Source: an uncultured Clostridia bacterium (GTDB lineage: Bacteria; Bacillota; Clostridia; Christensenellales; Borkfalkiaceae). Taken from it: a DNA stretch of 64,000 nt. Of this stretch, positions 31,527 through 55,027 are shown piece by piece. Where the stretch lies: positions 20,960 to 84,959 of the forward strand of contig CAMWME010000005.1 in assembly GCA_947175325.1 (NCBI GenBank), written 5' to 3'. Position 1 is the stretch's first letter; each line of letters starts with the position of its first letter. The notes beneath the pieces are model-generated. The model did not search any database. It worked only from the letters and a program-made list of their open reading frames with translations, and was not told where the DNA came from. The position numbers and the translations under genes are program-made.

Positions 31527-31544
31527 TAAATTACAATTTAAAGT

Positions 31545-31658
31545 TGTTCTTTGGGGCGGGGTGCAATTCCCCACCGGCAGTATAGTCTGCGAAGAGCGTT
31601 CGCTCCCGAACGGGTGAAATTCCCGTACCGACGGTAAAGTCCGGATGATAAAAGAACT
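31545..31658 (+). ncRNA. FMN riboswitch (RFN element)
   Basis: GGGGCGGGGTGCAATTCCCCACCGGCAGTATAGTCTGCGAAGAG...GAACGGGTGAAATTCCCGTACCGACGGTAAAGTCCGGATGATAAAAGAA. Confidence 0.98.
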
Positions 31659-31680
31659 GTAAAGCGGTTTTCGTTTTATT

Positions 31681-44709: not shown

Positions 44710-44891
44710 AAAAAACCTCCGTAATATTAAGACATTCTTGCTTACGCTTTAAGCAGAGGACTGTCCGAAGTCGAAATTAATATTAACAAATAAAATTTTA
44801 AAATGCAACTGTTTTTGGGGGGTGTGTCGCAATTTTCACAAAAGAATTAAGAGCATTTTCCTTATACATATAATATGTATAGAAAAGTAGC

Positions 44892-45015
44892 CTAAAAATG
44901 CAGAGATGCGAGCAGAACGCGGCGCGCGAGGAAAACCCGAAAGAGCTTACTTAGGCGTAAGTGACTGAGGGTTGCCACAGCGCAACAAAGTTATGCGAAG
45001 TATATATGCATTTTA
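44892..45015 (+). repeat. Structured dispersed element, copy B
   Basis: Terminal arms ctaaaaatgca / tgcattttag pair; core GAG-CTTAC-TTAGGC-GTAAG-TGA; GTTGC..GCAAC hairpin. Confidence 0.65.
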
Positions 45016-45639
45016 GATGATTTTGCTGTATCCGTAGGAATTAATAACGGCGTCTACCTTCATTCCTTTTTTGCAAAGCGGGCAGTCCACGGGGGAGTTT
45101 GAAGAATAATCGGGGATATCTTCAAGCCCGAAAAGCTTGTATACAGGCACGGGGCACGCAAAGCTTCCTCCGAACACGCTGACCACCGCAACGGGAATAC
45201 CGCCGTAATAGCTCAACCCCTCTATAATGCTGTTTGCGTCCTTACCCGTCGTTGCGGAAGCCGTTAAAAGCACGACGCGCTTGCCCTTGAAGTAAGAGAT
45301 AAAGTTATCGCGAAGCAGCAGTTTATCACCCGAAATTTCGGGGGAAATAACCGCAATGTTCTGTCCCTTGTTTATGTAAGTATTAGAAAGGTAGTGCGCC
45401 ATAAACGCACCCACCATCTTCATTCTGTCAAGCGTGATAATCGTGTCAACGGGCGTTGCACCCAACGCATCGCAGAAAAGCTTTGCCGTCGCCTTGGACG
45501 CATCAAGCTCCGACTTGACCTTAGTCATATCAACGCAGTAGTTGACGTGCGAGTGCCTCGTTGCAAAGTGCCCGGGGATAACCCTTATCGACACGTCCCG
45601 CGTTGCCTTTGAAAAAATATCGTAAGCTCTCTTTTCCAT
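45013..45639 (-). CDS. PyrE-like phosphoribosyltransferase-fold protein
   Basis: Type I PRTase-like GKRVVLLTASATTGKDANSIIEGLSYYGG; C-terminal DCPLCKKG. Confidence 0.7.
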   Translation of the reverse strand: MEKRAYDIFSKATRDVSIRVIPGHFATRHSHVNYCVDMTKVKSELDASKATAKLFCDALGATPVDTIITLDRMKMVGAFMAHYLSNTYINKGQNIAVISPEISGDKLLLRDNFISYFKGKRVVLLTASATTGKDANSIIEGLSYYGGIPVAVVSVFGGSFACPVPVYKLFGLEDIPDYSSNSPVDCPLCKKGMKVDAVINSYGYSKII

Positions 45640-53462: not shown

Positions 53463-53491
53463 TTGACAGCGCACAGTATTTATAATATAAT
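53463..53491 (+). promoter_or_regulatory. Promoter of the TPP-like leader
   Basis: TTGACA (53463-53468), 17 bp, TATAAT (53486-53491). Confidence 0.8.
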
Positions 53492-53510: not shown

Positions 53511-53732
53511 TACCGTCGGGGGTGCCCGTATATACGAACGCAGATTAAGCGGCAATAGCTCGTGCAGATACGAGTAGGTCGCGGAGCGCGCGGCTTTTGT
53601 AAGGGAGTTTACTATGGCGTAAATGACCGCAACAAAAACGCAAGCGCGACAAAGAGATGCGAAGTATATGCGCGAGCTGAGATTATACCCTTTGAATCGG
53701 CAACGTAATGGTTGAGCGATAGCGCAAAGAGA
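53511..53732 (+). ncRNA. Divergent TPP (THI-box) riboswitch with a ~128 nt structured insertion in P3
   Basis: GGGGGTGCC (53518) ... GCTGAGATTATACCCTTTGAA (53676) ... CAAC-GTAATG-GTTG; P3 ends CGTATATAC/GTATATGCG pair; upstream of a ThiT-like gene. Confidence 0.78.
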
Positions 53733-53797
53733 TTTTTCTTTCGTCCCCGTATTTTTGCGCGGGCGATTTTTATTTTCGGCGGTAGAAGGAGTTTTTT

Positions 53798-55027
53798 ATG
53801 TTTCTTGCACACCTTGCAAGCTCGTTCTTCGACCGCATAAAGCACGAAAACGGGCAGAAGTACTATCTGTACTCGGAAGTATGGACGGAATACGCGCAAA
53901 GCCTTTTGAACCAAGTATTCTTCTATACCGCGATTGCCCTCGTTGCAATACTTATTGCAGTGGGGCTACTCGTTCACCTCAAAAAGCCCGAGGCGTTTAA
54001 AGGCTTTAAAAACGCTTGCGTGGGCATTGCTTGCGGTTTTGCGATTACAGTAATCGTGAGTATGTTCGCCCTCGAATACGCGAAGATTGCCGAAAAGGGC
54101 TACGCGGAATATCCCGAAATTTTAGGGCTGGTGCTTATCCCCTTTACCGTCCTCGGCGGCGTTGCAGTGCTCGGAATTGCCGCGGCGTATATATCCTCAC
54201 TGTTCGATAAAAAGGCGTTTAAAATAACTTGCATGACCTCTGCATGCCTGTTCCTTGCGGCGTTTATTGCAACCTTCGTTTGCCTTGCCGTTTACTCGGC
54301 ACACGGCACTGCGGAGGACAACAACGGCGCGGTGATTACCCTTACCGAAAACGCAGTTTTATACGTTTGCTCGGCCGTAATTATTGCTGCAATAGTTTTG
54401 GTTGCGGTATTCGTCGGCAGAAACGAAAAGCGCGGGTTCGACAGTAAATCCATTTCCTACGCGGCGGTGTGCATTGCAATGAGCTTTGCGCTCTCCTACA
54501 TAAAGCCCATCGACTTGCCCCAAGGCGGTTCGGTTACGCCCGCGTCGCTTTTGCCACTTATGATTTACGCCTACATTTTCGGCGTAAGAAAGGGCGTTTT
54601 GGCGGGACTCGTTTACGGCACCTTGCAAGCCGTGCAAGACCCGTGGATTATCCACCCCGCGCAGTTCCTTTTGGACTATCCCCTCGCCTTCACCGCTATG
54701 GGCTTGGCGGGCACCTTCACGAAAATCAAGAAGCTTGACAAGCTCCCCCAAGTGCAGTTTGCCCTCGGCGCGGTTTGCGCTGCCACACTCCGTTTTGCGT
54801 GCCACACCCTTTCGGGCGTGTTCGCGTTCTCGGAATACTCCACGCTCGACAACGTATGGATTTACAGCCTCGGTTACAACTCGTTCGTGTTCGTCGACGC
54901 GCTCGTGTGCATAGTCGTGGGCGTGATAATCTTCTCGGTAAAGCCTTTCGTAAGACAGCTTAAAGCAATTCAAGCCAACGCGCTCGTTAAACCCAAACCC
55001 GTTGAAACGACACCCGAAGAAAACTGA
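53798..55027 (+). CDS. ThiT-like ECF S component with a ~215 aa membrane N-terminal extension
   Basis: C-terminal half MSFALSYIKPIDLPQGGSVTPASLLPLMIYAYIFGVRKGVLAGLVYGTLQAVQDPWIIHPAQFLLDYPLAFTAMGLAG is ThiT-like. Confidence 0.88.
   Translation: MFLAHLASSFFDRIKHENGQKYYLYSEVWTEYAQSLLNQVFFYTAIALVAILIAVGLLVHLKKPEAFKGFKNACVGIACGFAITVIVSMFALEYAKIAEKGYAEYPEILGLVLIPFTVLGGVAVLGIAAAYISSLFDKKAFKITCMTSACLFLAAFIATFVCLAVYSAHGTAEDNNGAVITLTENAVLYVCSAVIIAAIVLVAVFVGRNEKRGFDSKSISYAAVCIAMSFALSYIKPIDLPQGGSVTPASLLPLMIYAYIFGVRKGVLAGLVYGTLQAVQDPWIIHPAQFLLDYPLAFTAMGLAGTFTKIKKLDKLPQVQFALGAVCAATLRFACHTLSGVFAFSEYSTLDNVWIYSLGYNSFVFVDALVCIVVGVIIFSVKPFVRQLKAIQANALVKPKPVETTPEEN

Follow-up and report, generated by a model that had tools for sequence, protein, structure and literature searches.

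What does the leader of a thiamine transporter gene sense when one half of its aptamer follows the TPP riboswitch and the other half is divergent? The question arises at positions 53511-53722 of the window (the whole 64,000-nt stretch of DNA analyzed here), 3' of which the source contig carries thiT (53798..55027, plus strand). The first-pass annotation had read this leader as a TPP-like riboswitch ahead of a ThiT-like gene, with a divergent pyrophosphate-sensor half and a copy of a repeat element inside its P3 arm, and all of the motifs that it named were recovered at the same coordinates. The features of the locus are as follows, with aptamer residues numbered as in E. coli thiM.

53463..53491, plus strand: sigma-70 promoter TTGACA-17-TATAAT (12/12 match, by consensus only)
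53511..53518, plus strand: P1 5' strand UACCGUCG, which doubles as part of the switch strand; covaries across genera with 53777-53784
53519..53524, plus strand: P2 5' strand G16-G18, then G19, U20 and G21 of the pyrimidine pocket; the P2 closing pair varies
53527..53535, plus strand: P3 5' strand CGUAUAUAC, 9 bp with 53664-53672
53552..53683, plus strand: dispersed structured repeat in the P3 arm (R2, 125.6 bits; structure covaries in 25 copies)
53664..53672, plus strand: P3 3' strand GUAUAUGCG, pairs with 53527-53535
53676..53682, plus strand: GC and the UGAGA T-loop (U39-A43), which form the core for pyrimidine sensing and do not vary among the 55 aligned sequences
53687..53690, plus strand: A47 and the P2 3' strand CCC (covariation)
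53697..53699, plus strand: P4 5' strand UCG, covaries with the CGA strand
53700, plus strand: J4-5, a G (canonical GAU), shared by the 71 main-type RNAs, whose selecting pattern fixes this base
53701..53714, plus strand: P5 and L5, CAAC-GUAAUG-GUUG (P5 covariation)
53715..53716, plus strand: J5-4, AG (canonical CGU with C77 and G78); G/AG in 79/102 relatives
53717..53722, plus strand: P4 3' strand CGA, then U-A84-G; the A84 equivalent is invariant in A1
53742..53776, plus strand: terminator-like hairpin and U tract, whose 5' arm CGUCCCCG can alternatively pair with the 5' switch strand
53777..53784, plus strand: P1 3' strand CGGCGGUA, directly 5' of the Shine-Dalgarno sequence (covariation)
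53787..53791, plus strand: Shine-Dalgarno sequence AGGAG of thiT (by sequence)
53798..55027, plus strand: thiT, S-component of an ECF thiamine transporter (PF09515 and TIGR02357)

A TPP-like aptamer upstream of ThiT was confirmed both by the gene, whose product matched PF09515 (E 2.5e-38) and TIGR02357 (above the cut-off), and by the intact pyrimidine half, with GGGGGTGCC at 53518-53526 and GCTGAGATTATACCCTTTGAA at 53676-53696. In common with the TPP riboswitch (THI element, RF00059), the leader has P2 with G19 and A47, the UGAGA T-loop with G40, G42 and A43, P5 with the UNR-turn loop L5 (GUAAUG/AUAAUG with its UAAU, on a covarying P5), equivalents of A56 and A84, and a thiamine gene downstream. 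It is unlike that family in its recoded P4, in the residues U59-A80, G60, C77 and G78, from which G60 and perhaps G78 are kept, and in P1, which does not close right after the P4 strand but has its 3' strand farther downstream. UCGG and AGCGAUAGCG occupy the places of the usual CCUGAU and GCGUAGGGA.

The leader scored 12.9 bits against the Rfam TPP model, below the gathering threshold of 54.3 bits, and the search of its own genome with this model at E 0.001 gave no match, hence no second, canonical TPP riboswitch. Relatives of the variant with a short P3 aligned to the whole model at 24-48 bits, the consistently ill-fitting regions being confined to the pyrophosphate half and P1, and all variant relatives were either under the cut-off or missed; canonical TPP copies from the same genus scored 50-70 bits. 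Membership in another RNA family was rejected, as Rfam gave no strong match elsewhere. The HMP-PP riboswitch (thiS motif; PMC6478431) likewise has a thiamine-pathway ligand and an interlinked aptamer and terminator, but it differs in architecture, follows ON logic and governs thiazole synthesis rather than thiT; it had no Rfam match at the leader, and the downstream gene here is thiT, not a thiazole gene.

Comparative evidence places the leader in the TPP riboswitch lineage, as a member of a distinct variant class rather than one odd copy. Its 3' half, used as a 60-base DNA query at E<1e-8, matched about 75 of 94 genomes of the same genus. Among the 61 same-genus genomes used in later surveys, 50 matched this half, and in these the variant RNA heads thiT. 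An exact pattern search of a GTDB collection returned 100 stretches, several from Candidatus Coproplasma, and a set of 102 non-redundant relatives spanned several genera and families of one order. All of 10 diverse open reading frames downstream of variant leaders encode ThiT. A wide spread across Clostridia was ruled out by a class-wide survey of 392 genomes, where R1 matched only 6 at E<=1e-6, all in the same order.

The core of the main type, seen in 71 RNAs chosen by a pattern fixing UCG, G, AG and CGA, reads GCUGAGAU(U/C)AUACCCUUUGAA-UCG-G-CANN-NNAANN-NNUG-AG-CGA, and when loop lengths were left free, G/AG loops were still present in 79 of the 102 relatives. The first-pass annotation had held that covariation failing to support P2, P3 and P5 in homologues would speak against its assignment; pairing was supported for these helices and also for P4. 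Within an alignment of 55 sequences, 97.5% of the P2-P5 pairs were standard, and 101 cells with changes on both sides were counted, compared to 41.5 in shuffles; shifting the strands abolished this signal. Across the 102 relatives, P4 occurs as UCG/CGA, CCG/CGG, UCC/GGA, CCC/GGG and CCU/AGG, and the evidence here lies in this variety rather than in the pairing percentage, since membership in the set required that P4 and P5 could pair. P5 occurs as CAAC/GUUG, CAAG/CUUG and CAGG/CCUG. The closing pair of P2 is G-C, U-A or C-G in relatives, and P3 and the final P5 pair vary freely. The pyrimidine pocket is invariant across the 55 aligned RNAs, in which P3 and the flanks are variable; the UGAGA T-loop is also present in all 102 relatives, which were selected for it. 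Recurrence and covariation together rule out a lone decayed TPP copy. In one leader (L092 of G039), the P4-P5 hairpin is tandemly duplicated as ACGGCAAUGUAACGGUUGAGCGAGAG, approximately 20 nt after the aptamer core.

The divergence of the pyrophosphate-sensor half proved stronger than claimed in the first-pass annotation, being the property of a conserved RNA class. In TPP riboswitches, U59-A80, G60, C77 and G78 are highly conserved, and C77, G78 and two metal ions hold the pyrophosphate (PMC3764141; PMC7824784). Canonical copies of the order read CG(U/A)A(G/A)GG at this site (n=12, one pattern, fetched Rfam hits), in agreement with the Rfam TPP consensus. In the variant, U59-A80 is replaced by G-C and C77 by A, and the 3x3 loops are reduced to 1x2 or 2x2; other genera have GA/AA, G/AA, GG/CA, GA/CA, GU/AA or similar loops instead of GAU/CGU. 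The P4-P5 arm is two layers shorter, which by inference would bring L5 and its P3 contact nearer to the junction and leave less room for pyrophosphate. TPP binding has likely been lost in the variant. In the main type, the commonest form, equivalents of G60 and, by alignment, G78 may have been retained, and TPP could therefore still bind.

An expression platform absent from the first-pass annotation is newly predicted here: a long-range P1 combined with a terminator-like hairpin and the Shine-Dalgarno sequence. No helix adjoining P4 closes the aptamer; unlike in RF00059, P1 lies by the Shine-Dalgarno sequence and encloses the hairpin. Its strands pair as UACCGUCG/CGGCGGUA, AACCGUCG/CGGCGGUU, AAUCGUCG/CGGCGGUU, AUUCGCUA/UAGCGAAU, UUCGCCG/CGGCGAA and UCCGUCG/CGACGGA. 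A leader's own P1 5' strand formed 7.25 of 8 pairs, compared to 6.02 for the strands of other lineages set against the same 3' region. With P1 included, 94.2% of positions were paired, a percentage inflated by the choice of best windows as P1 partners and of P4/P5 partners partly by pairing, and 14 pairs had double changes versus 7.4 in shuffles. The outer P1 pair co-switches between U-A and A-U in all main-type leaders except one, as counted by hand among related and thus not independent genomes. The distance from core to Shine-Dalgarno sequence in the main type ranges from about 58 to 142 nt, and this variable spacing argues against a fixed sequence block.

How such a platform would act is suggested by the 5' strand GUCGGGGGUG, which has two alternative pairings, one with its partners in P2 and P1 and one with the terminator 5' arm. 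We infer from sequence an OFF switch with joint control of transcription and translation, a described category of bacterial riboswitch (PMC2258182). A ligand bearing the aminopyrimidine ring would bind the intact P2/J3-2 pocket, and the bound form would unite P2, the P4-P5 arm and the long-range P1, leaving the terminator free and placing a helix against the ribosome site, with thiT turned OFF. Without ligand, GUCGGGGGUG would pair with the terminator 5' arm and prevent termination, and the P1 3' strand would be released, with thiT turned ON. In 38 of 70 leaders, the duplex of 5' strand and terminator arm equaled or surpassed the best 10% of shuffles; it was no better than shuffles in the window's own leader (-11.0 vs -10.8 kcal/mol) and is missing from the L072-L094 type subgroup. 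The fold combining the aptamer with P1, P3 and the terminator had an energy of -95.9 kcal/mol, compared to -87.4 with the antiterminator enforced and -98.7 for the free minimum.

The distribution of thiamine genes bears on the ligand. Eight of the 61 same-genus genomes have a canonical TPP aptamer; thiC and thiG are present in these and no ThiT exceeds the cut-off, and the canonical aptamers inspected in the genus head a thiS-like gene. Of the 50 genomes with the variant, 49 encode a ThiT above the cut-off and one has it on a truncated contig; full-length ThiG was found in none of them, and two have a distant ThiC-like protein. The presence of thiT and absence of thiG in these genomes indicate that the variant belongs to importers. 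Thiamine pyrophosphokinase, searched for with two models, was undetected in 10 of the 50, including the present genome, and was detected in three control genomes. Its absence fits poorly with purely TPP-based control, although the cells presumably still need TPP.

We consider it fairly probable that this TPP-lineage variant class acts as an OFF switch for thiamine import, with a thiamine form other than TPP as its natural ligand. Because the J4-5/J5-4 pyrophosphate pocket is shortened and recoded, the ligand is probably not TPP, or not TPP only, and the rebuilt pocket together with the occurrence in importer genomes makes thiamine the first and most likely candidate. A more specific proposal, which we put forward tentatively, is that the leader belongs to a natural class of riboswitches for unphosphorylated thiamine, the first of its kind, in which a TPP aptamer with a rebuilt pocket is coupled through P1 to the ribosome-binding site of a transporter gene. 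If so, an order of gut Clostridia dependent on thiamine import would sense the unphosphorylated vitamin.

TPP itself is the main rival ligand. A remodeled P4/P5 loop might contact TPP differently and leave specificity unchanged, as would agree with the persistence of G60 and perhaps G78 equivalents in the main type, with the gene target (thiT is also a usual target of canonical TPP riboswitches, including those of the same order) and with the thiamine pyrophosphokinase encoded, and hence TPP made, in 40 of the 50 variant genomes. We find this rather unlikely, since every main-type member has lost or altered the equivalents of C77, U59-A80, A61, U62 and U79, the GA/AA, GG/CA and GU/AA loops of other genera lack G78, and the remaining 10 variant genomes have no kinase detectable by the two models.

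The insert in the P3 arm is a separate matter from the ligand. As the first-pass annotation had suspected, it is one copy of a repeat element, for which a covariance model matched 53552-53683 at 125.6 bits and found exactly three copies in the window, and the likeness noted to elements at 1741-1855 and 44892-45015 corresponds to the other two, 1732-1863 (51.9 bits, E 2.4e-12) and 44890-45019 (111.9 bits). In the model, built from 25 copies, 21 pairs have double changes, with 193 such cells versus 64 in shuffles. The present genome contains 14 copies and another related genome up to 69, and no Rfam family matched the repeat up to E 2. Sequence comparison shows the repeat, as it does the variant class, its structure and its link to thiT. 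Each repeat consists of a core of approximately 100 nt and a site-specific, self-complementary outer stem, with a mean of 8.8 pairs versus 4.9 with swapped flanks, and the repeat appears to lie within hairpins or to generate them. ERIC, REP and BOX elements are dispersed hairpin repeats. The present repeat resembles them in its length of about 100-130 nt and in being non-coding, structured and present in many copies, but is unlike them in the site-specific self-complementary outer stem, the covarying inner helices and the lack of an Rfam match.

The suggestion that the repeat has been domesticated as an aptamer feature was not supported, as about four-fifths of the same-genus relatives have an ordinary P3 arm of 15-35 nt. 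The insert is accommodated in the P3 arm with the P3 base still paired, and a role in sensing is possible, though unsupported. Insert-bearing relatives keep the P3 pairing, which is weakest in L034. Mapped onto the ThiT tree, presence of the insert calls for no fewer than 6 changes; a single origin is unsupported there, and this number is not a count of insertions because leaders and genes recombine. The leaders L007 and L008 are near-identical and precede distant ThiT proteins, and so the ThiT tree is not the history of the leader. ThiT occurs in relatives in a short or a long form, and differing forms follow near-identical leaders, which again suggests recombination between leader and gene; the window's own ThiT has a 220-aa N-terminal extension (residues 1-220, 53798-54457) without a Pfam match. 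Among variant genomes, the insert was found in 7 of 10 lacking the kinase and 5 of 40 bearing it (p 0.0007, uncorrected for relatedness).

The outer stem of the leader copy, AGCUCGUGC/GCGCGAGCU, shares bases with the 3' side of P3 and takes in the first T-loop base (U39). It and P3 are competitors for the strand that precedes the T-loop, so that the insert might tune the sensor, a reading compatible with a non-TPP thiamine ligand. Among leaders that carry the insert, the outer stem does show covariation (as in AGCCUGCGC/GCGCAGGCU and AGCUCGUAC/GUACGAGCU), but a self-complementary stem of this kind is found in almost all dispersed copies and so needs no riboswitch function. In addition, folds with P3 are favored in all 12 of 12 leaders with long inserts, in the partial deletions L009 and L018 the left portion of the outer stem is gone and the P3-closing helix alone remains, and most relatives have no insert; we thus regard tuning as improbable. 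That the leader is a degenerate former riboswitch, having lost sensing and acting as a constitutive attenuator or under protein control, is very improbable: low Rfam scores and the varied J4-5/J5-4 of other genera are compatible with it, but drift would be expected to erode a pocket that is invariant while P3 and the flanks vary, one loop type prevails, and P2, P4 and P5 covary.

Few riboswitch classes are as widespread as that for TPP, and its ligand-contact residues are called highly conserved in the literature. Altered pocket residues in an otherwise conserved aptamer also characterize the purine, FMN and ykkC variant riboswitch classes; a natural pocket or specificity variant of the TPP riboswitch was not described in the open literature searched (non-exhaustively). 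With a large, covarying class whose pocket has been rebuilt, one can test directly how an ancient sensor of a coenzyme could be retuned to a precursor or vitamer, and a single genus with a canonical sensor alongside biosynthesis versus a variant sensor alongside import offers a natural experiment. In many uncultured gut bacteria, this regulation of thiamine uptake escapes annotation, and the P3 insert illustrates the tolerance of an aptamer arm for a dispersed repeat. The window also contains an ordinary FMN riboswitch at 31543-31660 (106.9 bits).
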